From: Brachyhypopomus gauderio
Lineage: Eukaryota; Chordata; Actinopteri; Gymnotiformes; Hypopomidae
DNA length: 64,000 nt
Assembly: GCF_052324685.1 (NCBI RefSeq)
Contig: NC_135220.1
Coordinates: 6,207,843-6,271,842 of the forward strand
Reading direction: 5' to 3'
Part shown: piece by piece, positions 3,101 through 54,712 of the stretch
Numbering within the stretch: position 1 is the first letter of the stretch
Layout: every line of letters starts with the position of its first letter
Translations under genes and position numbers: made by a program
The notes under the pieces: generated by a model
What the model saw: only the letters and a program-made list of their open reading frames with translations
Told to the model about the DNA's origin: nothing
The model's database searches: none

Positions 3101-6100
3101 ACATATATACACTAACTGTTGCAAACTAAGCCATTGAATAGAATATGATCATTTGATTGTGCACGTAGATCATACATAAGGGCATTAAGTTTCTTTATAG
3201 AAGCAAAAAGTTGTACTGTATACATTGATTGGATGGATTAATAGTTATTACCTTCTTTTTTTGAATGCCCTAATTTTTTTCCTTCTGTTTTCCTCAAAAG
3301 TCATCTGAATGCTGCAGTAAGAAAGTGTACTGCTCGGCACTTGGCTACTTTGGTAGAGAAGATTGGTGCAGAGCGAATTATTCCTGCAGTCTCCAAGTTG
3401 GCACAGGACTCTTCCCAAGAAACCAGGTTAGTATTGTGATCAGAACGAGAATTCTACAAAGCTTATTCAATTTCCCAGATAGTAATAGATGCTGTGAGTC
3501 ATGGATCCCTCACTCTCGGTTCTCTCCTGTTTTGGGGTCTGTTCCTTGTCTCAGGCGCTTGGGCCGGCGTATGCTGCTGTTCCTGTCCTCCCACCACGAC
3601 TTTGATAAGATGGTGGAAAAGTACATCCCTGCCAAAGACCTGGCAACCATCAGGGACACTGTCCTCACTCTGAAATCCAAGGTGGCGATTCATGTTTGGA
3701 TACATGATGAGGATTTTTTATCCCTTTCAGCAACTATGCCCCATGTTTACTCACTAAACAAAGCTTATTCACAAAACTTCTAGGTGAAACAGACTGCAAT
3801 AAAAAAACATCTAAACTGTCATGGTAGACGTATATTGTAAACAAATAATAAAGTACAGGGCAGTGCGTGACATCACACATTGTATTTACAGTAGGACATG
3901 CACAGTGGTTGAGCATGGTTCAAAATGAACCGGTTTGAAACCTTTGGGATAGAATCAAAGTATGAAGCAACATGTGGACTTCAATATCATCACTCCATGT
4001 TTTGTGGTGATTCGTACGTGTGTATTCCCAGAAGAGGACAAAGGTGTCTAGGATTCCAAGATATAAGATGCGTCAGCCTCGTCTGGAGCAGCAAGAAGCT
4101 CCAGCCGCACAGACGGATCGGCAGAACACGCAGCGAATGAAGCGCAGCCTTAGGCACACGGTGAAGGACGTGAGCCCAGACGACGCGGCACCTCTGAAAG
4201 GTAACGGCTGACCTCGGCAAACGCTCCCCTCCTGTTTCCTGAGAACTTTACCTTACCGCTTACCTATGAACCTCCTTCTCATCAGACCTGCAGCTGAACA
4301 GTAATGTTCCAGCCCAGACTAAGACCGATGTCCTCATGGATGATTTGCCCACGAGCCCCAGCAATGCACGCACCCCCAGAAGTCCCGTCAAAAGTTTGAT
4401 TCCCCCGCTTCATCCCAGCCCCACCACGGCTGTCCCTACTAAACACTTACTGCCACGACGCAGACGAGCTCCCAGCCTGATCAGAGCACGCCCGTCCCTT
4501 TCAAACAGTTCTGGTGAGTGTTGTCTGCTCTTCAGCTTCTACATGTGTGATCACTGCGCTTGCACGTAAATTGCTTTGCTGTTAACACTGCATTACACAA
4601 CAATGTTTTAAATCTAGTTCTCCATGTTGAATAATGTTTTGCAGTTACAAGGATGTAACTTTTTTTGTTTCATGTAGTGAGCTTCACTTCACGTTACACT
4701 GCGGGACGTCTTCTGGGCACAGGAGGATTCGGCTCAGTGTATGCAGGAGTCCGCAAGGCTGATGGAAAACAGGTGAGCATCAGCACACAATACAAGAATG
4801 ATTGTGGGACCTAATTTCTATTTTAGATTGTGATTAGAACTTTGAGCTATGAGTTTTCCCTAGAGATCCATTGTTATTCACATGGCAATCAAGTGGTCAA
4901 GTCTAATGTACCTTGACCTTTTTCCACTTTTTGAACACAAAGATCCTGATTATACAATGTGATAAGCTTGGTAATCTGTGGATGAGTATTTATCAGACTC
5001 CAGATTTATGAGTTACCCGAGAAGCTGTGGCTACCATCTGAAAGCCCTTAGATATGTTAAATATACTGTCTGTTTTGTGTAAATAACTTCACTTCCTGTG
5101 TTTTTTATGTGACCAGATCGCCATTAAATTTGTGCCAAAGTGTCACGCAGAAAGGTTCATCACTGTTGTAAGTCCAATACCTTTACTTATGTAATATTGC
5201 AACAATGTTTGGAACTTTTTAGATGGGTAAAACTGTAAAGGGACTATAAACGCAAAGCTGTTAATTTTCCATTCAGTGACTCACAACACGAATGGAAAAC
5301 AGTTCACATTTTAGATTCAGGTTTCATCTAATGATTGGTACCAATCCAGATCCCTTTCATGTTAACCTGCTAACCATAATTCCACTATAAAACTTCAAAC
5401 CCATACTAACCAAGTCTTCCTTAATTTTAGCCCGGCAATACTCGCCGTCTCCCCTTAGAGGTGGCTTTAATGGAGATGGTGTGCAAGCCACCTCGTTGTG
5501 AGCATATTGTGGAGCTCCTAGAATGGTTTGAGTGCCACAAGTGCTTCATCTTGATTCTGGAGCGACCCGTCCCCTGCATAGACCTGTTTGACTTCTTGAA
5601 CTTGCACCAACGCCAACTGCCTGAGCCACTGGCACGACGGATCATGCGTCAGGTGGTTCAGGCTGTCCTTCACTGCCATGACCGTGGAGTTCTGCATAGA
5701 GACATCAAGGGAAAGAACCTTCTGGTGAACCTGGACACCCTTGACGTCAAGTTGATCGACTTTGGCTGTGGCGATCTGCTTAAGACCGGACCCTACAGGC
5801 ACTTTAGAGGTTATTCACCATAGGAATGAAATGTGCACCTCAAGTTAAAAAATGGGATCAAATTAGAGACTATTATAAACTTTTTATTTTGTTACTGATG
5901 ATTCTCTCTCGTTGTCTCAGGCACCATGGTATACAGCCCACCTGAATGGCAGGTTGACAGGACGTATGAGGGCCGTCAAGCCACCATCTGGAGTCTGGGT
6001 GTGCTCCTCTACAGTATTATCTGTGGACATCTGCCCTTTGAGAAGGTGGAGGACATTGTTGAGGCTCACCTGTGCTTCAGTGGAAACCCATCCAGAGGTG

Positions 6101-6527
6101 AAAAGGCAGAAGCATCTTCAAGATAACTAGAAAGTCTAAATTGCAAAATGATCATTTATGTAATTATTTAATCTGGTAATGTAATACACAACCACAGATT
6201 GATAAAATGGACTAATGAAGAATGGAGAATTGGCAATACAACATTTTGTAACCATCTTAAAATGATAAAAAGTTTTGTTCAGTCTTTTTTGTTAGTGATG
6301 GAGGTTTCTGTACAGTTCTGTCATTTATAAACTTTGAATAAGCCATTAGAACAGTCAGATCAGAAGTTTCAGATGGTAATTGATTTTCTTTCTCAACTAA
6401 TCCCGTTGCTACACACACAGACTGCCGCCATCTGATAACATGGTGTCTTCAAAAGGACCCTGAAAAACGTCCTGTGCTCGAGGATGTTCTTACACATGAG
6501 TGGTTTTTAGAAGGACTTCAGAACTAA
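197..6527 (+). CDS. TOG-PIM kinase chimeric gene, copy A (5' exons outside window)
   Basis: Sixteen exons can be placed with GT-AG borders and matching phases: 197-334, 541-717, 1309-1473, 1745-1810, 1980-2097, 2295-2400, 2580-2815, 3301-3426, 3555-3681, 4032-4200, 4286-4513, 4678-4772, 5117-5167, 5431-5809, 5921-6097 and 6421-6527. They total 2465 nt, which is two carried bases plus 820 codons and a TAA stop. The first four encode a Pro/Arg/Ser-rich segment. The next five encode a TOG domain of the TOGARAM (Crescerin, FAM179) type. Two linker exons follow, then a complete PIM-type kinase. The start exon must lie upstream, as in copy B. From the families, TOG domains bind tubulin and PIM kinases are constitutively active Ser/Thr kinases; a kinase acting at microtubules or cilia is inference. 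The 1745-1810 exon has a weak donor (GTTGGA). Confidence 0.8.
1816..1892 (+). repeat. 77-bp intron segment repeated before the kinase exon
   Basis: The 77 bp from 'aattgctttgctgttaac' to 'aatgttttgcagt' recur at 4569-4645 with one mismatch. One copy is in the intron before the first TOG exon and the other in the intron before the first kinase exon. Copy B has the same pair at 15100-15176 and 17853-17929, so the duplication predates the tandem duplication. Confidence 0.9.
1980..3681 (+). CDS. TOG-domain exons of copy A
   Basis: Five exons (1980-2097, 2295-2400, 2580-2815, 3301-3426, 3555-3681) encode about 238 residues of helical-repeat sequence typical of the third TOG domain of TOGARAM proteins. 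Landmarks include 'LLSSDDWEKKIEGLMSIHRL', 'SAVSRMAVVSLRELY', 'VLLHKAAEANGFIRQDVD', 'HLNAAVRKCTARHLATLVE' and 'LAQDSSQETRRLGRRML'. The W-E-K-K motif in the first repeat is the usual tubulin-facing segment of this family. The last exon ends in phase 0 after '...TLKSK', where vertebrate TOGARAM continues with a linker. The assignment to TOGARAM1 rather than TOGARAM2 is from memory and tentative. Confidence 0.85.
3691..3999 (+). repeat. Direct repeat left of the kinase block, copy A
   Basis: This intron segment, from 'catgtttggatacatgatga' to 'atcatcactccatg', recurs at 6557-6893 with small differences and one extra stretch of about 30 bp in the second copy. The two copies bracket exons 4032-6527. 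The right copy lies immediately before the exon that should naturally follow the TOG exons (6912), so the repeat looks like the ancestral intron, duplicated when the kinase block arrived. Confidence 0.85.
4569..4645 (+). repeat. Second copy of the 77-bp intron segment
   Basis: It matches 1816-1892 with one mismatch (taaat for tatat). It lies about 30 bp upstream of the acceptor of the first kinase exon, so part of this intron was copied from the intron in front of the TOG exons. Confidence 0.9.
4678..6527 (+). CDS. PIM-like Ser/Thr kinase domain exons of copy A
   Basis: Five exons encode a complete kinase domain. It has the glycine loop 'GTGGFGSVYAG', 'IAIK' lysine, helix-C glutamate in 'PLEVALME', the PIM-specific hinge 'ERPVPCIDLFDF', 'HRDIKGKN' catalytic loop, 'DFGCGDLLK' and the PIM-type 'SPPEW' in place of APE. 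It ends 'EWFLEGLQN' plus stop, as compact PIM kinases do. All catalytic residues are present. The first kinase exon opens in phase 1 (G|TG), exactly matching the end of the preceding linker exon, so the domain reads as a fusion. No start codon with leader was seen that would favour an independent gene. A separate nested pim gene with an unseen first exon remains possible. Confidence 0.88.
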
Positions 6528-6911: not shown

Positions 6912-8783
6912 GATCTGGGTGAGATGCCTCAGGATACACAGCTCGAGGCAGGCGCTCCATCCCAGCTGTGGAGTCATGCGTACCTCCTCCTCAGTTTGCC
7001 AGCAGGTGAATATTTAAAATCAAACAACAACAAAAATCAAAACAACAACAAAAAAGTGCATCCTGATTGGAACTGCTTTGATGTTTGCAATTTTGATGGT
7101 TTTGATGTTGGTTTAATTTGATTGCATTGCCTTGTTCATTTTCTGTTTCGACACTATAACCCAATCCTTGTGTTTTCTCTCTTGTGTGTGTTCAGCAAAG
7201 ACAGCAGCAGAGCACACATTCTTAGCATTGCAGACAAGACGGAGTACGTCAAGCAGCTCAAGGCCCTGCTGGGTTCAAAAGACTTCAGGGAGCGCATCAA
7301 GTGCATTGATCAGCTGGTGGTCGACTGCGAAGACAACCCATATATGGTCGTGGGCAACATGTTCCCGGTAACTCATTTGAACTGAATAGATTTTTAATGT
7401 TTTCAGCAGCTTTCAGAAGTGATCTGTATAGGGGGTCATACGTTGGAGAACATTAAATGCTGGCACATTTTAAATGCTGGCACATCACACTGCTCAGATA
7501 CAACCTGGCCCAAGTGGTCTAGATCTTAGTCCCAGCTATAGTGGACAATCACCTCAACTCCAAGAATAACGCCATCTACATGGCAACAATAGGTGCCATT
7601 CAAGCTCTCATCAATAACCTTGGTGGGTTCTTTTCTCTCTTCACAAAACATCTTGAAGAACACATGCCACTGGGCTTTAGAAAAACAACAACAACAATGA
7701 TTGTGTTCTGTTTTACCTTTGGGGAAAAGGTTCACACAAATCGGTAAAAGAATGTTCCTGCTCTTTGGCTAGATGTTTGTGGTGCAGATCAAATGGAAAT
7801 TTCCTTTCATATTAAGGCACAGTCCAATGTAAAGAGAAAAAAAAAGACTGACAGGAGATCTTGCGTTATCTGACAGCAGATTGTTAAATAATGGAGTTTA
7901 CAGTGGATGTGCTTAGGCTCTTTTGTTCTGCCTAATATGCACTCAAATAATTATGCATATGTGTTCCAAATGACCATTTGCAAACAGAGCTTTGTTCTCC
8001 TATCAGATACTGTTCATATATATTTAGTTAAAGTGTAACATTTTATGTGAATAATTAGTTGTTTTGATAAAGCAGGACACGTTTCTAAAAAGAATTACCA
8101 TACTGTAAATATTGCTGAACTTGACCAACACTGTCCTTGATCTATCTTTTTTCAGATAACACTACTTCTTCAACTGTTTTGCACAAAGGCTCGATTTCTC
8201 AGTGGAAAAGCTAAAGTGGATCTTGTTGATAAAGTTGCAGGTAAGTATACAATATACAGTGTCTAATCTTTTGTGGTTGTGTATACAGAAATATTCTACA
8301 AATTCAAATACATTTATCAAAAAACAATTATTTCAGAAAGTCATTCCACTGATATGCTAAGAGATGCCAGAGATAAAAAAAAAGATAAAAGATTTACCAG
8401 AAATACTATAATTCCTATATTTATTAATAATATTTATAATATTGATAATAATCATTCCAGAGAGTTACCATAGTTACCAAATACTGTCACTTTAATTGAA
8501 TTAAATCTTTCTAGGTTAAGAAAATGCTTCTGCAATAACCCAGTACTTTCCAGGGTTGATTTATTTATCTTGTTCTTTTTATAGAGCTGGTTAGGGAACT
8601 CTACCCCTGCAAGCCACAACTGGTTGAGCAGAAGGTGCTTCCTCTGCTCTGGTACCTCCTGGGGACCTCCAGCAACAGTGGTACAGTCCACGGGAGGGGT
8701 GGAAGCGTAAGGGGGGCCACTGTCCACCTATGCCAAGCCGCAAGAGCCTAAACGAGTTTGTGAAGAACCTCTCGATCAACTGA
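6912..8783 (+). pseudogene. Decayed downstream TOGARAM exons (next TOG domain), copy A
   Basis: Exon-like blocks at 6912-7005, 7196-7367, 7523-7622, 8156-8240 and 8585-8783 encode recognisable TOGARAM C-terminal sequence, such as 'DLGEMPQDTQ', 'KTEYVKQLKALLGSKDFRER', 'ILVPAIVDNHLNSKNNAIY', 'LLLQLFCTKARFLSGKAK' and 'SLNEFVKNLSIN'. They cannot be joined into one frame. The phase between the first two blocks is wrong unless an odd acceptor is used. About 30 residues before 'ILVPA' are missing, and an in-frame TAG stands where the upstream exon should read on. The 8156 block is frameshifted relative to its donor. The last exon has an internal deletion that ends the frame at 8748-8750, before the native C-terminus. 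The defects are shared with copy B, so decay preceded the duplication. Confidence 0.75.
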
Positions 8784-10741: not shown

Positions 10742-13700
10742 ATGAGTTTTTTCCCCAGGAGAACCGACCAGCCTAGGCCTAGGCAGGAACAGAACCACTT
10801 CATATACACACCAGGTTTTACCACTCATGGTGAGAAAAATACATTTTCATATATACTGTACATAATTTTATACTTCTATGTAAGACAGTATATTAATTCT
10901 TATGAGTATGGATTTCCATAGGCTTATTCATAATAATTAAAAGTTAAATATGTATACACATTTATATAGTAGGTTTCTAAGGTTCAGAAAAATAACCTGT
11001 ATATTTATTCTACAGATGACTGTCAAGCTCTTTATTTCATGTGTACAGGATAATATAATTAATGGAGCATGGGTTATTTCTTTGATTTCTTTGACTCAGC
11101 ACAATTTTCATAAATCCCACCATGTTAACATTGTCCATGTGGCCATGGAAAAAGCAAATAAAAATAAACATTTTTAAAAAGAAACAGATTTCTAACATGA
11201 CCTCACAAATTCTTAAGCATTCTCCCCACATTCTAATGACATCACATGGCACCATAGCCCTTGTTATAATCACTTGTTCATTGGGAAACACTTACAAGGC
11301 ATTTGAGCCTCACTGGGAGGCGTGCTGGGTTTCACTTTACCTGCTGTGGGATTTTCAGGTGTGCCCTACAACCCCCAAGCGACAGTGATCCACACGGATC
11401 CCTGTGGACCAGCACCCTTCCCTCACGGAAGGACGGCGGGACCCTCAGATGTCGGCTATGTTAACATGCCTGTAGAAGGACCACTCCTCACTGGTACTGT
11501 GTAACACTGAAGATTACATGCGTATTCAACAAACCAAATAACCATGCATGATGAAGTATTTATTACATTTGTTTGTAAGGTCTGGCAGAGGTGCAGAACC
11601 ATCAGCTTTCTGCACATGACCTGACCAGTAAAACATCAGTTTTATCAGAAAATATGACATCACATATTCTTCAACATTGTAATGAATTCACATGGCACTG
11701 TAGCCCTTCTTATAAACCTGATGATCTTAACAGTACATGCTCATGCTTCCTCTGTGCCCTGCGTTGGTGTTTTGCATTTAGGCCCTGACATGGAGAGGCA
11801 GAGACACCTTGCTCAGCCCCATGTTCAAGGCAAGGTTCTGAGGCAGATGGATCCAGTCTACCTCCAGCCTGCTGGTGGGTTCTTCATCGATAACTGTCTT
11901 CTTTCATATAGACATTGATAAGATATTTTTACTAGGCACGCGGACTGTTTTTACAAACATTTGTGAATGGGTCACTCTCAGGAGCTCAGTGAATTCCAGC
12001 GTGGAACTGTGACAGTATGCCACCTGTGCAATAAATCCAGTCGTGAAATTTCCTCGCTCCTAAAATTCGACAGTCAGCTGTATTATAAGGAAATGGAAGT
12101 GTTTGCGATTAACAGCAACTCAGCCACTTGCTTGAATCATATTTCAGTGGCACTTTCAGATAAAGAAACATATGCAACGTAGTACTAAGGCACTGAGAAA
12201 TGTTATGGTGAGGTCATTTCTGCTAATGGCCTTATTCGCCCATGCAGGTGAAGTTGGCTCCAGCAGGTGTCCCCCACTGCCTGTGCTCACTTCACGCACG
12301 ACAGTCACCTCGTCAGGACTGATGAGGCCTTCTCCACCCACCTTCACAAGGTTGCCTCCACTCCCCAAACCTGCTGGCCGAGAGCCTCTCCGTGCCTTCA
12401 GGCCTGCCAAAGGTGAGCTCACTCTTTTGCTCTCCTGGAAATGGCATCCAAACCGTTTGTTGCAGCAACAAAAAAAGTAAAAAAAAAATATTTAAAAAGT
12501 AAAAACTGCTTTGAAAACCCTATAGGGGAGACCGGGTATGGTTGTAACACCATCAGTTCACTCATCTGCTAGGCGGTTGTGTTTAGTATAAGGTGATAAT
12601 GCTTCGAATCATTGTTATACCAGCATAGTATAATACTGATAATACATGTATATGGATTACAGATGTCATTTATCACTATTTTAGTACACCCCCAAACAAT
12701 CTAAACAAAACATTGTCATGCTGCTTTGCTGGCTTCTGATACCTCATCTGGACTGCTGCTAAAGCATATATCTATTAATCTTTGTAATCTATATAACATG
12801 GCTTCTTTAAGTATTGGGTATCACCTGGCCAGCGTCAAGCAGCAGCAGTCTGTGTGATATAAGGAGTTTGTGCTTTGTACCTACTTCTGTTGGCAAGGGC
12901 AATGTGAGCTTACAAGCAAGACTAGACTTGAAAGTTTTATTGCAGTCAGTTGATTGTGCCAGCACCCCACTCCCCAGGCCTGCGCTGTTCCGATCCAGAG
13001 CTTTCCAGAGCTCTCCCATAGCCACTTTTGCTCCTCACTGCCATCTGCAGATTTGATTATGAATAAAAGTTTTCTTAAATGTTATTCAAATTGCTCCTAT
13101 TCATTAGCACATTTCGTTTATCCACTTAATGCTACTCTTGATATACATTTGAGCCATGCCAAAATATCGATTATCATAATCTATTATTGTTATTTAAAAT
13201 GCAGTATGATCTGCAGGTCTTAATTTCATATGCTGGTCTGAAGATTGAACGTGTCCTCTACAGTTCTGCCTGTGTTTCATGTCCAGGTTCAGTGGAGCCT
13301 CCCCAGCTCCAATCTCCAGGGTGGAAGAGAGAGAGAGTGGGGAGACTTCACCGGAGCGGCAGACATCTTCAACCCTTGCTTCCAGACATATTCGAAGCAG
13401 CTAACCCCAGTGATGCTGGCAGAGGTGACTTATTGATGTTGGCTTTACTTTATATGTCATTGAAATACCTGTACAAAATGTAGAATTTATAATGTTGCGT
13501 AATTTGTTTTGTGTTAAAATATTGCTAAATACGATATTTGGGAACAAGGAGATCAGTTAGTCAGAAACTTCACTCAGGTGTCAAGTGAACGGAGCTAAAC
13601 TCATGATCATGGATGCCCTTTCCCATGCAGGTTTGCCCAAATCCAGCCGCTTACTGTCTGGGAACCCCCCCGGGTCTTTCCTACTGCCCTCCTACCCTCT

Positions 13701-16700
13701 GGCCACTCTTCCGGGAGTGCAGCTCACTCCCACTCTGCATCGTAGACGACACAAGCGAGACACGAGCCCTCGGCGCAGAGACCCGGGCCCGTGGAGGGAC
13801 AGTACTGGTGAGCGCATGGCTACGTTGCTAAGAACGTGCTAGGCACACACAGTGAGGCATGGCCGGTTATTTGGGTGCCCGGTTAAGTTGGTCTTGCACT
13901 AAGCTTGTCTTGCACTTGTTCCCACGTCAGTGGTAAAGTGATGAGCAGACCTAATTTTGTGGTGTCATACATACTACATGAATTTTATTTTAACCAAAAA
14001 ATGTGCATATACTTGGATCATTTATAGTCACCACTTGTCAAATGTACAAAATACTCATACTGATGCTCTTCATCTGACATGGTTTCACTCAGTAATGGAA
14101 CAGTGTCTAGCAGAGGCGACATGTGCTAGCCATTAGCAGAGCTAGGCGGTACTGTAGTTTGGCGCTTCAGTATCTACCAGTATCAGAATTAAAATAATTT
14201 TGAATTGTGCCGAAATAATTAAATTGAATCAAATTGTATTTAAATGTAAGACTTCATGATACAATAAACTAAAAGAATCACAACTAAGCTAAACTAAAAC
14301 TGGGTCACACATTTACTGAAGCTCTGATAAATGTCTTCCTGCTTCTGGGCTCACGGATGCCCTGCTTTCAGTTCTTCAGTACTAATTCATTGTGCTGCCA
14401 TTACATGAATTGTAGCAAGATGCATATGAGATGTTGCCGTTCTCGGTCCATCTTGCTTGAATCATATTTCAGTGGCACTTTCAGATAAAGAAACATATGC
14501 AACGTAGTACTAAGGCACTGAGAAATGTAATTTAGAGGTAAAAAATGTAAAAAAGAGGTAATTTCTGCTAATGGCCTTATTCGCCCATGCAGGTGAAGTT
14601 GGCTCCAGCAGGTGTCCCCCACTGCCTGTGCTCGCTTCACACACGACAGTCACCTCGTCAGGACTGATGAGGCCTTCTCCGCCCACATTCACAAGGTTGC
14701 CTCCACTCCCCAAACCTTCTGGCCGAGAGCCTCTCCGTGCCTTCAGGCCTGCCAAAGGTGAGCTCACTCTTTTGCTCTCCTGGAAATTGCATCCAAAATC
14801 ATTTGCTGCACCAACAACAACAAAAAAAGTAAAAAAAGTATTAAAAGAGTAAAAACTGCTTTGAAAGCCCTATACTACAAACAAAAAGCCCCTGCTGATC
14901 CTCTTGTACATTGCTATGCTTGCACCCATGGACATGTTTTTCTGCACCATGAAGAAACCACTATGAAACCAGAAGTTATATTTGGGATTTTTGATGGAGT
15001 ACGTGTTAATATGTATTGTGCTTTTCAGGATCTCAAGTGCAAAGCACCAGGGCAGTCCCTGCTGACGACATGTGTGAAGGAGTAGTTGGCAGAGGTTGGA
15101 ATTGCTTTGCTGTTAACACTGCATTACACAACAATGTTTTATATCTAGTTCTCCATGTTGAATAATGTTTTGCAGTCAGTTTTCAAGCTGATTTGAACCA
15201 AAGTTGAGCTGGTAGCCCTAAAAGTCCTAGTCAGTTTGTTTGGGTTCTGGTATTCCTCTCTAGATGAACTCAAACCAGGAACTCCCAGGGAGGATCCCCA
15301 TGAGCATCAGATTTTACAGCCCTTCTACAAACCAGACCTCGCTCTCGCTCAGAGCTTCAGACTGCTTAGCTCTGATGACTGGTAAGTCACACCTGCAAAA
15401 TTCTGAAGCATTTGGCTAGGGCAGGTTAAACAGCAAGTCATTTATGGTGTTCTGCATATATGGTATGTATGCATGTATTTAGTGAAGTTTTTTCCTCTTT
15501 GTCCCTTTTCTTGTAGCATTTTTTACTTTCAGTAGCCGATGGTTACAGTGTGTGTCTATGTCCAATATCTTCATACAGGGAGAAGAAAATTGAAGGATTG
15601 ATGTCAATCCGTAGATTGGCTCGGTATCACGCTGATGTGCTTGGCAGCAGGCTTCATGATGTCTGCATTGTTCTTATTCAAGAGGTAAGCCACTATATTT
15701 GCTGACTGTGTATCTGTAAATTCAGATGGCATATCTAACTGTAATTAGTGATTAAGGTATTTAGGCCTACATAACACATTGCAGTGGTGGATTATACTTA
15801 TTAAGATGGCGGTGGCAGTGTTGGATGTGGCTGAAACGAGCTGGAACGTCGTCTTTCCTGCAGGTGCTGCACCTGCGCTCTGCAGTGTCCCGCATGGCGG
15901 TGGTGTCCTTGAGGGAGTTGTACTCCAGCCTGCAGAAAGGGATGGACCAGGAAGTGGAGGCTACAGCTAAGGTCCTCCTCCACAAAGCAGCGGAGGCCAA
16001 TGGCTTCATCAGGCAGGACGTGGACACAGCTCTGGACAGCATGGTGCAGAACTGCACCCCCATTCGGAGCATGAACGCCCTTCTTGCTGGAGGACTCTGG
16101 TCAGTTAGCATGCAGTGAGCTTTAAACTGTGGCTTTCAGATAGCAACAACAGTCACAAGAAGCTAACACAACACTGATTATGGCTGCTGTTTTTACTTCT
16201 CCATTGTTCTTTCAAAATATTGCCCTGGCCTATATCAATATTTTTAGTTATTTATCCTCTTAAATATTTTTTTTATTGAGTTCCATCTCCGCTCTGCTGA
16301 TCCAAACTGCCCTTCACACCACTTAAAGAATAGGCTAGTTAGCTAGCTCACAGAGGACATACAAACATTTTCTGTTTAAAAAATACATATATACACTAAC
16401 TGTTGCAAACTAAGCCATTGAATAGAATATGATCATTTGATTGTGCACGTAGATCATACATAAGGGCATTAAGTTTCTTTATAGAAGCAAAAAGTTGTAC
16501 TGTATACATTGATTGGATGGATTAATAGTTATTACCTTCTTTTTTTGAATGCCCTAATTTTTTTCCTTCTGTTTTCCTCAAAAGTCATCTGAATGCTGCA
16601 GTAAGAAAGTGTACTGCTCGGCACTTGGCTACTTTGGTAGAGAAGATTGGTGCAGAGCGAATTATTCCTGCAGTCTCCAAGTTGGCACAGGACTCTTCCC

Positions 16701-19700
16701 AAGAAACCAGGTTAGTATTGTGATCAGAACGAGAATTCTACAAAGCTTATTCAATTTCCCAGATAGTAATAGATGCTGTGAGTCATGGATCCCTCACTCT
16801 CGGTTCTCTCCTGTTTTGGGGTCTGTTCCTCGTCTCAGGCGCTTGGGCCGGCGTATGCTGCTGTTCCTGTCCTCCCACCATGACTTTGATAAGATGGTGG
16901 AAAAGTACATCCCTGCCAAAGACCTGGCAACCATCAGGGACACTGTCCACACTCTGAAATCCAAGGTGGCGATTCATGTTTGGATACATGATGAGGATTT
17001 TTTATCCCTTTCAGCAACTATGCCCCATGTTTACTCACTAAACAAAGCTTATTCACAAAACTTCTAGGTGAAACAGACTGCAATAAAAAAACATCTAAAC
17101 TGTCATGGTAGACATATATTGTAAACAAATAATAAAGTACAGGACAGTGCGTGACACCACACATTGTATTTACAGTAGGACATGCACAGTGGTTGAGCAT
17201 GGTTCAAAATGATCCGGTTTGAAACCTTTGGGATAGAATCAAAGTATGAAGCAACATGTGGACTTCAATATCATCACTCCATGTTTTGTGGTGATTCGTA
17301 CGTGTGTATTCCCAGAAGAGGACAAAGGTGTCTAGGATTCCAAGATATAAGATGCGTCAGCCTCGTCTGGAGCAGCAAGAAGCTCCAGCCGCACAGACGG
17401 ATCGGCAGAACACGCAGCGAATGAAGCGCAGCCTTAGGCACACGGTGAAGGACGTGAGCCCAGACGACGCGGCACCTCTGAAAGGTAACGGCTGACCTCG
17501 GCAAACGCTCCCCTCCTGTTTCCTGAGAACTTTACCTTACCGCTTACCTATGAACCTCCTTCTCATCAGACCTGCAGCTGAACAGTAATGTTCCAGCCCA
17601 GACTAAGACCGATGTCCTCATGGATGATTTGCCCACGAGCCCCAGCAATGCACGCACCCCCAGAAGTCCCGTCAAAAGTTTGATTCCCCCGCTTCATCCC
17701 AGCCCCCCCACGGCTGTCCCTACTAAACACTTACTGCCACGACGCAGACGAGCTCCCAGTCTGATCAGAGCACGCCCGTCCCTTTCAAACAGTTCTGGTG
17801 AGTGTTGCCTGCTCTTCAGCTTCTACATGTGTGATCACTGCGCTTGCACGTAAATTGCTTTGCTGTTAACACTGCATTACACAACAATGTTTTAAATCTA
17901 GTTCTCCATGTTGAATAATGTTTTGCAGTTACAAGGATGTAACTTTTTTTGTTTCATGTAGTGAGCTTCACTTCACGTTACACTGCGGGACGTCTTCTGG
18001 GCACAGGAGGATTCGGCTCAGTGTATGCAGGAGTCCGCAAGGCTGATGGAAAACAGGTGAGCATCAGCACACAATACAAGAATGATTGTGGGACCTAATT
18101 TCTATTTTAGATTGTGATTAGAACTTTGAGCTATGAGTTTTCCCTAGAGATCCTTTGTTATTCACATGGCAATCAAGTGGTCAAGTCTAATGTACCTTGA
18201 CCTTTTTCCACTTTTTGAACACAAAGATCCTGATTATACAATGTGATAAGCTTGGTAATCTGTGGATGAGTATTTATCAGACTCCAGATTTATGAGTTAC
18301 CCGAGAAGCTGTGGCTACCATCTGAAAGCCCTTAGATATGTTAAATATACTGTCTGTTTTGTGTAAATAACTTCACTTCCTGTGTTTTTTATGTGACCAG
18401 ATCGCCATTAAATTTGTGCCAAAGTATCACGCAGAAAGGTTCATCACTGTTGTAAGTCCAATACCTTTACTTATGTAATATTGCAACAATGTTTGGAACT
18501 TTTTAGATGGGTAAAACTGTAAAGGGACTATAAACGCAAAGCTGTTAATTTTCCATTCAGTGACTCACAACACGAATGGAAAACAGTTCACATTTTAGAT
18601 TCAGGTTTCATCTAATGATTGGTACCAATCCAGATCCCTTTCATGTTAACCTGCTAACCATAATTCCACTATAAAACTTCAAACCCATACTAACCAAGTC
18701 TTCCTTAATTTTAGCCCGGCAATACTCGCCGTCTCCCCTTAGAGGTGGCTTTAATGGAGATGGTGTGCAAGCCACCTCGTTGTGAGCATATTGTGGAGCT
18801 CCTAGAATGGTTTGAGTGCCACAAGTGCTTCATCTTGATTCTGGAGCGACCCGTCCCCTGCATAGACCTGTTTGACTTCTTGAACTTGCACCAACGCCAA
18901 CTGCCTGAGCCACTGGCACGACGGATCATGCGTCAGGTGGTTCAGGCTGTCCTTCACTGCCATGACCGTGGAGTTCTGCATAGAGACATCAAGGGAAAGA
19001 ACCTTCTGGTGAACCTGGACACCCTTGACGTCAAGTTGATCGACTTTGGCTGTGGCGATCTGCTTAAGACCGGACCCTACAGGCACTTTAGAGGTTATTC
19101 ACCATAGGAATGAAATGTGCACCTCAAGTTAAAAAATGGGATCAAATTAGAGACTATTATAAACATTTTATTTTGTTATTGATGATTCTCTCTCGTTGTC
19201 TCAGGCACCATGGTATACAGCCCACCTGAATGGCAGGTTGACAGGACGTATGAGGGCCGTCAAGCCACCATCTGGAGTCTGGGTGTGCTCCTCTACAGTA
19301 TTATCTGTGGACATCTGCCCTTTGAGAAGGTGGAGGACATTGTTGAGGCACACCTGTGCTTCAGTGGAAACCCATCCAGAGGTGAAAAGGCAGAAGCATC
19401 TTCAAGATAACTAGAAAGTCTAAATTGCAAAATGATCATTTATGTAATTATTTAATCTGGTAATGTAATACACAACCACAGATTGATAAAATGGACTAAT
19501 GAAGAATGGAGAATTGGCAATACAACATTTTGTAACCGTCTTAAAATGATAAAGTTTTGTTCAGTCTTTTTTGTTAGTGATGGAGGTTTCTGTACAGTTC
19601 TGTCATTTATAAACTTTGAATAAGCCATTAGAACAGTCAGATCAGAAGTTTCAGATGGTAATTGATTTTCTTTCTCAACTAATCCCGTTGCTACACACAC

Positions 19701-19809
19701 AGACTGCCGCCATCTGATAACATGGTGTCTTCAAAAGGACCCTGCAAAACGTCCTGTGCTCGAGGATGTTCTTGCACATGAGTGGTTTTTAGAAGGACTT
19801 CAGAACTAA
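10742..19809 (+). CDS. TOG-PIM kinase chimeric gene, copy B (complete, 981 aa)
   Basis: Twenty coding exons: 10742-10829, 11359-11493, 11782-11874, 12248-12412, 13287-13424, 13631-13807, 14593-14757, 15029-15094, 15264-15381, 15579-15684, 15864-16099, 16585-16710, 16839-16965, 17316-17484, 17570-17797, 17962-18056, 18401-18451, 18715-19093, 19205-19381 and 19703-19809. All have GT-AG borders, all phases agree, and the sum is 2946 nt with no internal stop. The start ATG lies seven bases into an exon whose acceptor follows a C/T tract. Residues 1-342 are Pro/Arg-rich, about 343-580 form a TOG domain, 581-712 a basic linker and 713-981 a PIM-like kinase (K748, E771, hinge 805-809, D852, N857, D871). 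The family's TOG1 and TOG2 appear absent. Exons 2-8 are all phase 1-1. By eye, copies A and B differ at about ten coding replacements and five silent sites, with no frame breaks. Confidence 0.82.
12129..12524 (+). repeat. Internally duplicated exon block, first copy
   Basis: From 'cttgcttgaatcatatttcag' through the exon 12248-12412 to 'gctttgaaaaccctata', this block recurs at about 14454-14872 within the same gene. The duplicated exon encodes 'GEVGSSRCPPLPVL...' with two replacements between the copies (T for A, A for S). Since the exon is 165 nt and phase 1-1, both copies can be used without breaking the frame. Confidence 0.88.
14454..14872 (+). repeat. Internally duplicated exon block, second copy
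   Basis: Second copy of the block at 12129-12524, carrying exon 14593-14757. Copy A has the matching exon at 1309-1473 but lacks about 180 bp of the upstream flank (present at 14289-14473 here). Confidence 0.88.
15264..16965 (+). CDS. TOG-domain exons of copy B
   Basis: Counterpart of 1980-3681, with exons 15264-15381, 15579-15684, 15864-16099, 16585-16710 and 16839-16965. Replacements relative to copy A include H to R after 'LMSI', C to R in 'VLHLRSAVSR' and L to H in 'DTVHTLKSK'. The copy B residues at the first two look closer to the TOGARAM family pattern I remember. Confidence 0.85.
16975..17283 (+). repeat. Direct repeat left of the kinase block, copy B
   Basis: Same arrangement as 3691-3999. 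The partner is 19839-20173. Both flank exons 17316-19809. Confidence 0.85.
17962..19809 (+). CDS. PIM-like Ser/Thr kinase domain exons of copy B
   Basis: Exons 17962-18056, 18401-18451, 18715-19093, 19205-19381 and 19703-19809 give an intact kinase domain with every catalytic motif seen in copy A. Replacements are C to Y in 'VPKYHAERF', and E to A and T to A in the last exon ('DPAKRPVLEDVLAHEWF'). None touches a catalytic residue. Confidence 0.88.
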
Positions 19810-19838
19810 CTCAGGTTAGACAAGGAGTATAAATGGAA

Positions 19839-20173
19839 CATGTTTGCATACATGATGAGGATTTTTTATCCCATTCAGCCACTATGCCCCATGTTTACTC
19901 ACTAAACAAAGCTTATTCACAAAACCTTTAGGTGAAACAGACTGCAAAAAAAAACCATCTAAACTGTGATGGTAGACATATATTGTAAAAAAAATATTAA
20001 AGTACAGGGCAGTGCGTGGCACCATACATTGTATTTACAGTAGGGCATGCACAGTGTAGTCCCAGACCCAGTAGTTAAAGGACAGAGCATGGTTCAAAAT
20101 GAACCGGCTTGAAACCTTTGGGATAGAACCAAAGTATGAAGCAACATGTGGACTTCAATATCATCACTCCATG
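19839..20173 (+). repeat. Direct repeat right of the kinase block, copy B
   Basis: Partner of 16975-17283, ending just before the TOGARAM-type exon remnant at 20192. Confidence 0.85.
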
Positions 20174-20191
20174 ATGTTGATGTGGCTTTAG

Positions 20192-23000
20192 GATCTGGGT
20201 GAGATGCCTCAGGATACACAGCTCGAGGCAGGCGCTCCATCCCAGCTGTGGAGTCATGCGTACCTCCTCCTCAGTTTGCCAGCAGGTGAATATTTAAAAT
20301 CAAACAACAACAAAAATCAAAACAACAACAAAAAAGTGCATCCTGATTGGAACTGCTTTGATGTTTGCAATTTTGATGGTTTTGATGTTGGTTTAATTTG
20401 ATTGCAGCCTTGTTCATTTTGTGTTTCAACACTATAACCCAATCCTTGTGTTTTCTCTCTTGTGTGTGTTCAGCAAAGACAGCAGCAGGGCACACATCCT
20501 TAGCATTGCAGACAAGACGGAGTACGTCAAGCAGCTCAAGGCCCTGCTGGGTTCAAAAGACTTCAGGGAGCGCATCAAGTGCATTGATCAGCTGGTGGTC
20601 GACTGCGAAGACAACCCATATATGGTCGTGGGCAACATGTTCCCGGTAACTCATTTGAACTGAATTGATTTTTAATGTTTTCAGCAGCTTTCAGAAGTGA
20701 TCTGTATAGGGCAGGGGTACTCAACTGGCGGACCGCGGTCCGGATCCGGACCCGAACGCAGTCCTGTCCGGACCCAATCTCATTCCTGATTAACTGGATA
20801 CGGACCAAAACAAAACCGTAACATTTATTTCAGGGCTATTGAAAAAACACTCCGTCACGAGTGTTACGTTTGCCACCCCCGCTCAACAACTTACGTTCGC
20901 CACCCCCCCCCCCCCCCCGGGCTACAAGCCTGGTTGACGCTTCGCGAGCGGCGCGAGGGTCCGCGCGGCGAAAATAAGGTAATCGCTGAGGCTCCGCGCT
21001 GTCGGTTCGCGAGGTCGTGCACCTGTAACTTCGCGCGCGCCGCGCTTCAGCGCAATGAACAAAGTCACGTTTTCAGGGTTCATACACCTTCATAAGGTGG
21101 AATTAAAGCACTTGTACGTCACTTTCAAGGTCCATTTCAATATTTCCCAGCATGTTAAACATAATTAAGTTAAATATTTATACATATACTCGAAATAATT
21201 CGCTTTTTATCACATTATTTAATGGTTGTTTATTTAAAAAACGCCCAATCTTCACGTCTTCACGTTCTCATGTTTCGTCCTGGAATTATAAGAGGCTCGT
21301 ATTTGTTAACCTAATACAAGATAACTATTCAGTCAGACAGATATTTGTTGTGAAACCAAGTAGTTACAATTTCAAGCATTTTAAAGTACTTTAACCTAAA
21401 TTCCAGCACTTTTCAAACCTGAAACACATAGCAACATTAAAATTGGTCAGGTAAATGTTCATTCCCCTGTTTTGAGGGGTGTTTCTACCACATATCGTTT
21501 CGGACAAAACACCACAACACCCCCTCACCCCCCCCCCCCCCCCCCCCCCGCCCCCCCCCCTGGACCTCAGGTCACAGGTATATGCCAAAATTGGACCGCG
21601 GACAAATTTAGTTGAGTACGCCTGGTAAAGGGGGTCATACGTTGGAGAACATTAAATGCTGGCACATTTTAAATGCTGGCACATCACACTGCTCAGATGT
21701 GCCAGCACTGCTCAGAGACAACCTGGCCCAAGTGGTCTAGATCTTAGTCCCAGCTATAGTGGACAATCACCTCAACTCCAAGAATAACGCCATCTACATG
21801 GCAACAATAGGTGCCATTCAAGCTCTCATCAATAACCTTGGTGGGTTCATTTCTCTCTTTACAAAACATCTTGAAGAACACATGCCACTGGGCTTTAGAA
21901 AAACAACAACAACAATGATTGTGTTCTGTTTTACCTTTGGGGAAAAGGTTCACACAAATCGGTAAAAGAATGTTCCTGCTCTTTGGCTAGATGTTTGTGG
22001 TGCAGATCAAATGGAAATTTCCTTTCATATTAAGGCACAGTCCAATATAAAGAGAAAAAAAAAGACTGACAGGAGATCTTGCGTTATCTGACAGCAGATT
22101 GTTAAATAATGGAGTTTACAGTGGATGTGCTTAGGCTCTTTTGTTCTGCCTAATATGCACTCAAATAATTATGCATATGTGTTCCAAATGACCATTTGCA
22201 AACAGAGCTTTGTTCTCCTATCAGATACTGTTCATATATATTTAGTTAAAGTGTAACATTTTATGTGAATAATTAGTTGTTTTGATAAAGCAGGACAAGT
22301 TTCTAAAAAGAATTACCATACTGTAAATATTGCTGAACTTGACCAACACTGTCCTTGATCTATCTTTTTTCAGATAACACTACTTCTTCAACTGTTTTGC
22401 ACAAAGGCTCGATTTCTCAGTGGAAAAGCTAAAGTGGATCTTGTTGATAAAGTTGCAGGTAAGTATACAATATACAGTGTCTAATCTTTTGTGGTTGTGT
22501 ATACAGAAATATTCTACAAATTCAAATACATTTATCAAAAAACAATTATTTCAGAAAGTCATTCCACTGATATGCTAAGAGATGCCAGAGATAAAAAAAA
22601 GATAAAAGATTTACCAGAAATACTATAATTCCTATATTTATTAATAATATTTATAATATTGATAATAATCATTCCAGAGAGTTACCATAGTTACCAAATA
22701 CTGTCACTTTAATTGAATTAAATCTTTCTAGGTTAAGAAAATGCTTCTGCAATAACCCAGTACTTTCCAGGGTTGATTTATTTATCTTGTTCTTTTTATA
22801 GAGCTGGTTAGGGAACTCTACCCCTGCAAGCCACAACTGGTTGAGCAGAAGGTGCTTCCTCTGCTCTGGTACCTCCTGGGGACCTCCAGCAACAGTGGTA
22901 CAGTCCACGGGAGGGGTGGAAGCGTAAGGGGGGGCACTGTCCACCTATGCCAAGCCGCAAGAGCCTAAACGAGTTTGTGAAGAACCTCTCAATCAACTGA
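20192..23000 (+). pseudogene. Decayed downstream TOGARAM exons, copy B
   Basis: Blocks at 20192-20285, 20474-20645, 21741-21840, 22374-22458 and 22802-23000 repeat the defects of copy A: lost phase, missing block and TAG before 'ILVPA', frameshift before 'LLLQLF', and a deletion near the C-terminus. In addition, a 913-bp hAT-like element sits in the second intron. An AATAAA follows at 23028-23033. Confidence 0.75.
20712..21624 (+). mobile_element. Non-autonomous hAT-like element, 913 bp, copy B only
   Basis: The ends are inverted: 'caggggtactcaact' on the left and 'agttgagtacgcctg' on the right (14 of 15 match). It is flanked by gtataggg and gtaaaggg, an 8-bp target duplication with one mismatch, the length used by hAT elements. 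Copy A at 7424-7431 shows the empty site, a single gtataggg. Inside there are GC-rich stretches and two long C runs (about 20896-20918 and 21529-21560) but no transposase. Confidence 0.88.
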
Positions 23001-23123
23001 GAGCTGCCAGCCAGACCTCCAGACCAAAATAAACCCCAACATGGTTTCTACTTGAAGATGGAGATGTTTGTGCATTTCTTATTGTGCCTGCACTTTAAAT
23101 GAAAGAGAGAGGAAGAAAGTCAA

Positions 23124-26100
23124 AATATAGCCGCAAGCGGCAATTGGCGGGTTCACACACGAATAGGCCACTTGGCTTCAATAGGCAATAGACCCAATAG
23201 GTCCTTTAGACCCAAAAGAAGCTGTTTGAGTGGAAAAAATGCACAAATAAATCAATGTGCAAAAAAATGTTCAATTGGGGCACTAAAGGCCCAAAAGGAT
23301 CAAAATAATGTGTATTGGCAAAATGATTCAAATCACAGAACTAAATCACATGCTGAGATCAGCTTTGTGTGTGTGTTTGTGTGGTATTTCATGTGAGAAA
23401 TAGTTTTCAGTCCGTTCCGATGTTTGGCCACTAGATGGAGCCCAAGTACTACCATACTGATATCTCATTAATCTCAGTAATGCAATATGACATTTTGGTG
23501 AATTAAAAGGTTCATTTCTGGTCAGGCAGTGCACTTTTTGTTATAAGATGCAATTGCAATGTTATAGAACTTATTGATCTGGATCATACAAGACCAATTA
23601 CTTGTCTGTATTCTGCATAACAAGATTGCAGCATGAGTTTTTATGTTTTCTTAGGTTTTTGGGTACTGTAGCGCCCCCGACAGGCCAATTTGAACCAAAC
23701 TTGGCATACCTCACACGGACTTCAGGATATAAAAGCCTTTCAAATTGGGAATTGATTGCATACATGGTTCATGAGTTATAGCAATATAGGTCATATATGG
23801 CATGGCCACAATGATATAATGGGAAAATGGACCAATCAGAAAAATAAAAATCCAACATTTTTTTACTCAGTTTTTACCTACAGAGTCTACTGATTATGCT
23901 CATAGCAATTTTTCCATAATTGGATCAAATTCCTATGACTAGTTTGTAAATAGCTATTTTCAAACAATAGATGAATGTGACAAAAGTATGCATTTTTTAA
24001 TAGGACTTGTAATTGCAAAGTTGTCAGGTCTACTGCAAGGAATAAAAAGAAACAAGTTGCATGTTCCTAAGTGAAAATTTGGAGGAGTTATGCATGATTT
24101 TCACAAATAGCGCCACCTAGTGGCCAAATGTTTCAAAACTGCACAGCATGACACATAGTCCTAAGATATGCACAGTGGTGAGGTTTCATGTTGTTTGGCC
24201 AATGGTAAGTCTGTCAAATGGCCAATTAATTCAAATAAAAATTAATTGGCTCATGGCGGCCATGTTTTTTGAGTGATGATGTCATCATTGTGTGTCTTGA
24301 TATCACTTGGGCCCCTGATGATGCCTGTAAAGTTTTGGCTTGATGTGACTAATGGTTTCTGAGATACAGTTTTTCCCATGTTATAGCGCCCCCTATTGGA
24401 CGATCGTGGCCAGCTTTGACCTATGACCTCGGAGTCATGTGCCCTAACAACTGTTAAAGTTTTATGAAGATCCGTCAAAGCGTTGCTGAGATATGGCTGT
24501 TTAAGTAAATTTGGCCACGCCTTGGAGCTATTGATTGACATGTGACAACCAGACTGTATGCAAATCTCAAAATGTTTTTAAGCAACGTTGATAATGAGAT
24601 TCTCCTGAATATTTTGACACCAAGGTTGTGGTGATCCGATGAAAAACCAGGGACTAGTACAAAAAAGTAGGTTTTGCATATTATGCAAATTAGCAAAAAA
24701 TCTAAGTAGGCGGAGCTTAATGGTTCTTGAGGCTTTTTTTTTTTATTTTTTTTTTGGAATACATCAGAAGTGGAATTTTGTTTCTAGGCCCTACGGTTTG
24801 GGAGATATGGACCAAAACGCAAAATGGTGCGCTATAGCGCCACCATCAGGCCAATGTGGGTCTCTGTGCTTTAGCACGGTCTCGCAAAGAGACTACACCA
24901 TTCTGCCAAGTTTGGTGTCTCTGGCCTTTACGGTCTAGGCTGCAGTATGCGTTTTATGCGGAGAAAAATAATAATAAATATAGCCGCAAGCGGCAATTGG
25001 CGGGTTCACACACGAATAGGCTTCTTGGCCTCAATAGGCAGAGGCCCAAAAGGTCCTTTAGACCCCAAAATGTGAAAAGAAGCTGTTTGAATGGAAAAAA
25101 TGCACAAATAAATCAATGTGCAAAAAAAGGTTCAGTTGAGGCACTAAAGGCCCAAAAGGATCAAAATAATGTGTATTGGCAAAATTATTCAGATCACAGA
25201 ACTAAATCACATGCTGAGATCAGCTTTGTGTGTGTTTGTGTGGTGTTTCATGTGAGCAATAGTTTTCAGTCTGTTCTGGTGTTTGGCCACTAGATGGGAC
25301 CCAAGTACTACCATACTGATATCTCATTAATCTCATTAATGAAATAGGACATTTTGGTGACTTAAAAGGTTCATTTCTGGTCAGGCAGTGTACTTTATGT
25401 AAAAAAAAAAGATTCAGTTGAGGCACTAAAGGCCCAAAAGGATCAAAATAATGTGTATTGGCAAAATGATTCAGATCACAGAACTAAATCACATGCTGAG
25501 ATCAGCTTTGTGTGTGTTTGTGTGGTGTTTCATGTGAGCAATAGTTTTCAGTCAGTTTCGGTGTTTGGCCACTAGATGGAGCCCAAGTACTATCATACTG
25601 ATAACTCATTAATCTCAGTAATGCAATGACATTTTGGTGAATTAAAAGGTTCATTTCTGGTCAGGCAGTGCACTTTTTGTTATGAGATGTAATTGCAATG
25701 TTATAGATCTCATTGAGCTGAATCATACAAGGCCAATTACTTGTCTGTATTATGCATAACAAGATTGCAGCATGCGTTTTTATGATTTTATAGGTTTTTG
25801 GGTACTGTAGCGCCCCCGACAGTTTGAACCAAACTTGGTATACCTCACAAAGACCTCAGGCTATAAATGGTTTTTTGAGTGATGATGTCATCATTGTGTG
25901 TCTTGATATCACTTGGGCCCCTGATGATGCCTGTAAAGTTTTGGCTTGATGTGACTAATGGTTTCTGAGAAACAGTTTTTCCCATGTTATAGCGCCCCCT
26001 ATTGGACAATCGTGGCCAGCTTTGACCTGTTACCTCTGAGTCATTTGCCCTAACAACTGATAAATTTTCATGAAGATTGGTCAAAGCGTTGCTGAGATAC

Positions 26101-32509: not shown

Positions 32510-33334
32510 CATGGGCACGATAACACCCAGCAACATTTTCATAATACATATTCTGTTTCACAATGCATTATGTGGTAATATGTTTTAATTGCTAAAGTGG
32601 AACCAAATGGAATGTTTTTGTTTAACTTGTCTGTTAGATTAACTACGCTATTGGAACAAAGACATTTAATGTGTTAAATTGTTTATTTATATATACACTA
32701 AGTGATCAGTGCTTAGCACAAGTAGAGTATATGAAACAGCTGTTACACAGGTGCTGCTGACATCAAGCTCCTGAATCAGATGAAGAATGAATGTTGGCGT
32801 TCCAAGGAAGAAGCAAGAATGTCCTGTTGAAGCAAAGCCTGCTGAACACATCTCACACACACAATACATTTTTAAACTGTTGAGCTGAAAGTGTTTAGTG
32901 ATGTACATATTTGCAACTTAAGCTTGTCTGATCAAGTATTCTGATGTGGTTATTTGTTTTAAAGCTATACAGCTTTTAAATGAGCAGTAAAGCGTGGTTT
33001 TGCTCATTGTATTCTGAAAAATGTACATTAGTGGAAATGGTCCCTTGAATCAAGTCCCTTGATTATAAAGTAATGCTTAGTTTGTATAACATGGTGTTAG
33101 GAAGGCATTTACTTCACAGTAATTTCTATATGCAATACTGTAACAATGTATGCAAGTAAGAAATTAGTCATGAATACACCTGTCACGAATACAATGTCTG
33201 TTCTGATTTTTTTTTACCTTTTTTCTTTTTATGATTTGATATGTGCTGTTTGTATTAAGTAATATTGATTGATTAGTATGTCGTGTTGGGATAGACATCA
33301 TAGGTTTTGACTGGTTGTGTGTTTGTATTTTCAG

Positions 33335-38450: not shown

Positions 38451-38950
38451 NNNNNNNNNNNNNNNNNNNNNNNNNNNNNNNNNNNNNNNNNNNNNNNNNN
38501 NNNNNNNNNNNNNNNNNNNNNNNNNNNNNNNNNNNNNNNNNNNNNNNNNNNNNNNNNNNNNNNNNNNNNNNNNNNNNNNNNNNNNNNNNNNNNNNNNNNN
38601 NNNNNNNNNNNNNNNNNNNNNNNNNNNNNNNNNNNNNNNNNNNNNNNNNNNNNNNNNNNNNNNNNNNNNNNNNNNNNNNNNNNNNNNNNNNNNNNNNNNN
38701 NNNNNNNNNNNNNNNNNNNNNNNNNNNNNNNNNNNNNNNNNNNNNNNNNNNNNNNNNNNNNNNNNNNNNNNNNNNNNNNNNNNNNNNNNNNNNNNNNNNN
38801 NNNNNNNNNNNNNNNNNNNNNNNNNNNNNNNNNNNNNNNNNNNNNNNNNNNNNNNNNNNNNNNNNNNNNNNNNNNNNNNNNNNNNNNNNNNNNNNNNNNN
38901 NNNNNNNNNNNNNNNNNNNNNNNNNNNNNNNNNNNNNNNNNNNNNNNNNN
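38451..38950. other. Assembly gap, 500 N
   Basis: Exactly 500 Ns interrupt the Helentron ORF between the Rep tyrosine region and the helicase. The round length suggests a placeholder. Joining the upstream frame to the downstream frame requires a true gap length divisible by three, which 500 is not. Confidence 0.98.
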
Positions 38951-38952
38951 TA

Positions 38953-49900: not shown

Positions 49901-50690
49901 ATTGGCATATGAAAAGCTTGTGAAAGGTGTACTGAAAGCTGATTGGTCGATAGCGGCGGCCATATTGGACATATGATGGTGCAGGTCAAGGACCTGTGTC
50001 ATAGGTGCATATAGATGATGCGTACCAAGTTTGGAGTTATTTGGCCAATCGGTGTGGGCAGGAGAGTTTTTTGGCCGTTATAGCGCCACCTAGGTGTGCA
50101 TGTCTTCCAAAATGTATGTGCCGGTCTAGACACCCAATAGGTACATGTGTGTGAAATTTGGAGTGAATACATGAAAGTATGCCTGAGATACAGCAGAATA
50201 TGTGCATTTTTGGCGAAGGAATTTTCTACGCTTGACTTGTGATGCATGTGGCCACGCCCATGTGCAGAAATGTGCACTTTGGCTCCATAACAATTAAAGT
50301 TCAGACTCTTGTGAGCGCCTGGATACCACATATGTGCATGTATGTGAAAAATCCAGGGACTAGTACGCGCTCAAAAATGTGTGCAAATTTGCATATTATG
50401 CAAATTAGCTCGACATGTAAGGGGCGGAGCATATGGCTTCAATGGAACTTTATTTAGATGAGCTCATGCCTGATCATATGCAGTTTACATTTTGTCTCTA
50501 GGACATACGGTGTAGGAGAAACACCTGTGTAAACTTTTTCATGCGTTTGTGTGCGCTATAGCGCCACCTAGGGTCGTATCGGGCTGGCGTGTTGCGCCTG
50601 AGTAGCGGAGAGGAGTACTACAAGTTGGCCAAAGGAGAAGTCTGTAGGTCTTACGGTTTAGGCTGCACAACGCGTTTTAGCGGAGAAAAA

Positions 50691-50736
<46 letters not shown>

Positions 50737-54675: not shown

Positions 54676-54712
<37 letters not shown>

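Follow-up and report, generated by a model that had tools for sequence, protein, structure and literature searches.

Structure of the gene and its product

We analyzed a stretch of 64,000 nucleotides from the electric fish Brachyhypopomus gauderio (C10:6207843–6271842, here called the window) and searched the assembly of this species (796.5 Mb). The window contains, at positions 10742–19809, a predicted gene in which a TOGARAM-type TOG domain and a complete PIM-like kinase are connected in phase. We call this gene copy B; a close relative, copy A, precedes it at 197–6527. All features described below lie on the forward strand. We consider it highly probable that the gene belongs to a chimeric family with this architecture, which originated by the replacement of one domain by another.

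The gene comprises 20 exons (10742–10829 through 19703–19809) with a total length of 2946 nt, or 982 codons with the stop counted. All 19 introns are of the GT-AG type, the phases are consistent, and no internal stop interrupts the single frame shared by TOG and kinase. This reproduces exactly the exon number, length and agreeing phases given in the initial annotation of the locus. The exon borders were set by inspection of the sequence; the end points and two junctions were known beforehand, so the reconstruction was not blind. Across the junction from 16965 to 17316 the predicted product reads LKSK followed by KRTK, and across that from 17797 to 17962 SNSS followed by VSFTS. The NCBI-predicted protein P0003 (LOC143525291 isoform X1 of B. 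gauderio, uncharacterized, from a cluster of 46 members) joins the same residues at both junctions. It matches the product with 95% identity at 100% coverage and has the same architecture; the nearest database proteins in general are NCBI predictions for B. gauderio. A Pfam search of the product assigned CLASP_N (TOG) to residues 379–518 (8.3e-9) and Pkinase to residues 719–975 (3.4e-53). Since the closest solved structures are in addition those of human PIM1, the fusion model is not a product of chance. Annotated proteins with both TOG and kinase (P0001, P0002, P0003, P0005 and P0011) are encoded on C10, C2 and C7 of the same assembly. An Rfam search gave no match.

The first three exons (10742–10829, 11359–11493 and 11782–11874) form the N-terminus with the start codon. 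They match neither TOGARAM1 nor, up to E = 1, any Pfam family. Exons 4–8 (12248–12412, 13287–13424, 13631–13807, 14593–14757 and 15029–15094) represent a linker derived from TOGARAM1, as assigned by tblastn with the TOGARAM1 protein of B. gauderio (P0013). Exons 9–13 (15264–15381, 15579–15684, 15864–16099, 16585–16710 and 16839–16965) correspond to the second-to-last TOG of P0013, which we take to be TOG3 in the usual numbering; the HEAT-A Trp of this domain is present. Exons 14 and 15 (17316–17484 and 17570–17797) match the linker in front of TOG3 and are duplicates of the respective TOGARAM1 exons. Exons 16–20 (17962–18056, 18401–18451, 18715–19093, 19205–19381 and 19703–19809) encode the complete PIM-like kinase domain and the stop.

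In addition to copies A and B, we read 20 loci picked for an open exon 18. Eleven of them contain a TOG and nine are PIM-only (L001, L004–L006, L012, L016, L018–L020). Exons resembling exons 1–3 are found in the PIM-only loci L012, L018, L019 and L020; L016 has a counterpart of exon 1 only. The catalytic residues, called intact in the initial annotation, are retained in all 22 genes (eight motifs, including G-loop, AIK Lys, HRD and DFG), as is the hinge pattern ERPxPCxD. The PIM-type hinge, with its proline, has the form ERPxPxxDL. Compared with solved structures, the kinase sequence scores 263 bits with PIM1 and 240 bits with PIM2, and 135 bits with PAS domain kinase as the next family. A structural model of P0003, based on an alignment of 63 sequences, has pLDDT values mostly above 90 in the kinase and low ones in the linker of exons 4–8; outside kinase and TOG the chain is long and disordered. 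A sequence search of the TOG half against solved structures gave no match at 1e-3. The best fold match of the model is human PIM1 (47% identity, TM-score 0.90 relative to the target). The kinases of L002, L003, L015 and L017 begin with CLTSRYT instead of SFTSRYT.

Breakpoints, copies and proposed origin

At the native locus of the cilium-tip gene TOGARAM1 in B. gauderio (L035) the order is exon 14, exon 15, TOG3 and TOG4, with no kinase match. Comparison with this locus, one exon at a time, confirmed that the TOG of the fusion gene descends from TOGARAM1 TOG3. The N-terminal TOG region of P0013, searched for with a stretch of 237 residues, has a single match in the genome, on C17. As judged by homology, exons 4–15 of the fusion gene derive from TOGARAM1 and exons 16–20 from a PIM-like gene. 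BLAST of the junctions against native TOGARAM1 and the introns of PIM-only genes placed the left breakpoint at 17930/17931, 31 nt upstream of exon 16. Intron 15 (17798–17961) is therefore a hybrid, with TOGARAM1 intron homology up to 17931 and PIM-like sequence from 17930. On the right, PIM homology stops at 19819–19831, just past the stop codon (19809), and homology to the native TOG3–TOG4 intron resumes at 19839, which leaves 19832–19838 as the breakpoint region. A first copy of this native intron lies at 16966–17283 and a second one, behind the kinase, at 19839–20191. The duplicated intron block, the native position of exons 14 and 15 before TOG3, and the remains of TOG4 downstream go beyond the initial annotation.

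In L002 and L011, about 210 nt of additional PIM 3' flank are followed by resumption within the last ~15 nt of native exon 13. This resembles the right junction as first formed, and we infer a later deletion in the array of the window. Four diverged loci located on other contigs (L002, L011, L014 and L017) show unbroken homology over the left breakpoint. In its simplest reading this common breakpoint suggests one founding event for the TOG-kinase loci. TOG4 sequence was found within 6 kb downstream in 8/8 TOG-kinase loci examined and in 0/6 PIM-only loci examined, and the TOG-linked kinases form one group in a protein tree (support 88).

In both copies of the window, comparison with P0013 located TOG4 exons behind the kinase. 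In copy B (20192–22994) the frame is lost in exon 20192–20285, an in-frame TAG is present at 21738–21740 and the last exon is damaged; residues 1282–1307 of P0013 were not found in these remains. The remains in copy A (6912–8777) show the same lesions. About 0.9 kb at 20711–21624, inside the remains of copy B, is missing from copy A. Kinase skipping by splicing of exon 13 to 20192 was considered as well. The phases would permit this, but the reading frame is not kept, and the product would end in a short tail unlike TOG4. The decay of TOG4 is not general, because it is better preserved elsewhere. Downstream of L013, a gene with the order TOG-TOG-kinase, the TOG4 exons (L032) are mostly 93–100% identical to the native ones, with one piece at 68%. 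A kinase-skipping isoform with TOG4 could exist there.

The initial annotation described copy A as a second intact copy. The 16 exons that fall within the window (exons 5–20) are indeed open and have GT-AG borders. Exons 1–4 lie to the left of the window start, and "intact" therefore applies to 16 of 20 exons only. Between copies A and B, 15 substitutions are counted over 2465 coding nucleotides (0.61%; five synonymous and ten nonsynonymous) and 18 over 3859 aligned intron positions (0.47%).

We counted at least 25 TOG-kinase loci in the genome. In the region 6.16–6.34 Mb of C10, 11/11 of the kinase exon-18 matches listed have a TOG exon-11 match 2.85–2.88 kb upstream. Five further pairs with a spacing of 2.88–2.89 kb are located on C156, C557, C181 (two) and C1. 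The remaining loci of the count were read exon by exon (L009 on C249, L010 on C23, L002, L003, L011, L013, L014, L015 and L017). The small contigs may represent alternative haplotypes. Other fish, which the initial annotation had suggested searching by BLASTP, contributed no TOG-PIM combination among the best matches: five proteins with TOG and kinase were found both among the best 120 of 484 matches to the product and among the best 120 of 5753 matches to the kinase, all five belonging to B. gauderio.

TOG exons are also found apart from the kinase. Out of 261 candidate copies in the genome 40 were scored, and 24 of these, with 98% identity, lie on C9 at 17.5–19.0 and 22.5–22.9 Mb with no adjacent kinase among the matches listed. 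They are perhaps a second, TOG-only amplification similar to P0006. In the catfish Ictalurus, P0008 and P0009 contain tandem TOG3-type domains without a kinase, an amplification of TOG3 in another lineage.

Based on the comparison of these loci we propose the following origin of the family. The first step, which the loci support, would be a duplicate of TOGARAM1 without the N-terminal TOG region, in which the block linker-linker-TOG3 was duplicated in tandem. In one copy of the block, the segment from the intron before TOG3 through the end of TOG3 would have been swapped for ~2.1 kb of a PIM-like gene, extending from 31 nt before exon 16 to ~210 nt further past the stop than the present array retains. 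The breakpoints of this second step are seen in the sequence; the order of events is what we infer from them. Because the phases match, the hybrid intron would splice in frame, and because of the kinase stop the protein would end before TOG4. The third step can be seen directly: related copies now lie on several contigs and in a tandem array in the window region. A processed retrocopy is excluded, as the kinase retains four introns. The family represents a new domain combination and a domain-for-domain replacement with readable breakpoints, a hybrid intron and a discarded TOG4.

Elsewhere in the window, a Helitron-like element occupies 33311–41760; its OTU-like and helicase-like segments were recognized by eye, and a gap of 500 N (38451–38950) splits it. 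Repeat blocks of ~1.85 kb and units of ~792 bp, about 90–98% alike, are found at 23123–25012 and 45205–62899, in the part of the window beyond the gene copies.

Predicted function and evidence for and against constraint

PIM kinases are constitutively active and do not need phosphorylation of the activation loop. In TOG domains, the Trp in the HEAT-A loop contacts tubulin. The product of the fusion gene may accordingly be a constitutively active Ser/Thr kinase on a long disordered tail with one TOG3. Through this TOG3 the kinase would be directed, if weakly, to tubulin or microtubules; where the HEAT-A Trp is lost, the TOG could serve as another docking surface.

According to PMC12170345, TOGARAM1 possesses four TOG domains in two pairs, of which TOG3 and TOG4 bind tubulin and have redundant roles, and the linker adds microtubule affinity. 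From these properties and the constitutive activity of PIM kinases we read the product as a possible linker-assisted, weakly tubulin-directed PIM-type kinase. Taken as a whole, i.e. a chimeric family including a microtubule-docked kinase function, we regard the proposal as evenly balanced between right and wrong.

The reading frames are well preserved. In all 22 genes the kinase exons measure 95/51/379/177/107 nt (376 instead of 379 nt in four), with AG and GT at the internal borders and no internal stop; the openness of exon 18 is in part due to the choice of loci. The TOG exons are open in 14/14 units lying fully within the fetched stretches. Three units truncated at the edge were dropped (the first units of L003, L013 and L017); in L015 there is one further partial unit, with exon 13 only. 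In a rough, tree-based estimate, unconstrained evolution should have produced ~8.2 nonsense changes in those four kinase exons that were not used for selecting the loci, and 4.7 in the TOG exons. None was observed in either. Regional pN/pS for ten kinases, five of them PIM-only, has its minimum (0.61) in the segment with catalytic loop, DFG and P+1 and its maximum (1.54) in that between G-loop and catalytic Lys (VAIK).

Several observations weigh against a constrained, tubulin-docked kinase. Kinase dN/dS, from pairwise counts, is 0.58–1.31 for 14 diverged pairs (two near-identical pairs omitted; three pairs are PIM-only versus PIM-only). The pN/pS of the TOG is 0.33–1.21 in 21 pairs. Neither range indicates strong purifying selection. 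Copies A and B are young copies without coding constraint, as coding divergence (0.61%) is set against 0.47% in the introns. The exon-13 donor of L002 and L003 was mapped off GT, probably owing to a small deletion close to where the exon ends. Relative to native TOG3, the TOG has a deletion of 11 residues in exon 12. The HEAT-A Trp was checked in 13 TOG-kinase genes (L007–L010, copies A and B, L002, L003, L011, L013, L014, L015 and L017). It is present in nine of them, including both window copies. The units read of L002, L003, L015 and L017 show Gly or Arg in its place; judging by this substitution, tubulin contact in these four is doubtful. The TOG of the P0003 model is predicted helical with moderate confidence (pLDDT blocks 43–77). 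The product has one TOG and lacks TOG4, unlike TOGARAM proteins with their four TOG domains. A study cited in PMC12170345 found no stimulation of tubulin polymerization by TOG3 alone.

Family members that retain the presumed tubulin-contacting Trp and members that have lost it offer a natural experiment on the effect of the TOG on the kinase.

Alternative explanations and related systems

According to one alternative, the DNA does carry a genuine fusion, but mainly as a by-product of rampant amplification, i.e. as a large, relaxed or decaying, repeat-like family with little or no transcription and no function in the organism. The dN/dS values near 1 fit this explanation, as do the near-identical tandem copies, the numerous further copies of the TOG exon (261 candidates, of which 40 were scored), the broken TOG4 downstream in the window and the lack of coding constraint between copies A and B. 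It does not readily account for the complete absence of stops and frameshifts from 22/22 kinases and 14/14 full TOG units against ~8.2 and 4.7 expected nonsense changes, nor for the eight catalytic motifs in all 22 genes, even if the openness of exon 18 partly reflects the choice of loci. On balance we find this explanation rather unlikely.

The family might also be driven by conflict. The PIM-like kinase would then be an effector of innate immunity or of another arms race, and the TOG a bait or sensor mimicking a microtubule or cilium-tip target. The integrated decoys of plant immune receptors follow a similar logic. The tandem array is in line with this idea, and so are the fast amino-acid change with a conserved catalytic core (pN/pS of 0.61 versus 1.54 in the ten kinases, PIM-only included) and the varied N-terminal partners of fish PIM-like kinases (TPR_Sec16, PH and TOG). 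The dN/dS near 1, however, is equally consistent with relaxation, and the partner proteins are gene predictions among the best 120 of 5753 matches. We judge a role in conflict unlikely.

Two genes could have been joined wrongly: one for the TOG, which would stop short of the kinase, and a PIM-like one that has a promoter and start to itself. Nine of the 20 loci read are PIM-only genes with N-terminal exons of their own. In the window, however, a query with one of the two types of PIM-only N-terminal exon (PIMn) gave no match, and the intron before exon 16 is TOGARAM1 sequence until 31 nt from the exon. A start codon for the kinase itself, which the initial annotation had named as evidence against the fusion, was looked for, and the cassette contains no usable one. 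Exon 16 begins in phase 1 behind an acceptor and has no in-frame ATG before it: the upstream frame runs into a stop at 17940 and contains no ATG from there to the exon. Within the cassette, Met first occurs at residue 62, beyond G-loop and Lys. The kinase can therefore not be produced whole on its own. With no start codon for the kinase and no match to the PIMn-type exon in the window, a separate kinase gene was rejected, and wrong joining is very improbable. An assembly artefact connecting TOGARAM1 and PIM sequences, for which the 500-N gap (38451–38950) and the near-identical tandem array might speak, is refuted by the unbroken left junction of L002, L011, L014 and L017, which are diverged and lie on other contigs, by the pair's presence in at least 25 loci and by the gap's distance of more than 18 kb from the gene, and we give it practically no weight.

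The chimeric family formed by domain replacement may be part of a wider pattern. Among the best 120 of 5753 kinase relatives (540–1717 residues), 53 contain TPR_Sec16, three PH and five TOG. Sec16-PIM proteins come from catfishes in all 52 named cases of the 53, PH-PIM from the catfish Trichomycterus and TOG-PIM from B. gauderio. These proteins are predictions, some perhaps mis-joined; in ten that were sampled again the partners were seen anew. The five kinase exons of 95/51/379/177/107 nt could be a cassette that was repeatedly transplanted behind different captured host modules in different fish lineages, each combination then multiplying and changing fast, which would amount to a kinase-based, decoy-like recognition system of vertebrates. 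We put this forward as a rather unlikely extension. If the N-termini in other fish prove to be independent captures, they would point to a general route to new vertebrate signalling proteins. The initial annotation knew of no described TOG-PIM protein, and topic searches of open-licence papers found no description of such a fusion. NCBI models do exist under the name "uncharacterized protein"; since they are public, the sequence is known, though apparently undescribed.

With PIM1/2/3 and the fish PIM-like kinases, the product shares the whole catalytic domain, the ERPxPC hinge, HRDxKxxN and DFG. It differs in that exons from TOGARAM1 take the place of the PIM-like N-terminal ones, and in its N-terminal extension of ~710 residues. 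With TOGARAM1/Crescerin (TOG array regulator of axonemal microtubules 1) it has in common the linker and TOG3 exons (exon 11 is 92% identical to the native gene) and the remains of TOG4. In contrast to TOGARAM1/Crescerin, the N-terminal TOG region and a working TOG4 are absent in the window, TOG3 is shortened and the protein ends with a kinase. The Sec16-PIM and PH-PIM proteins predicted by NCBI for catfishes likewise place a PIM-like kinase behind another module, but their partner is TPR_Sec16 or PH instead of a TOG, and they occur in different fishes.

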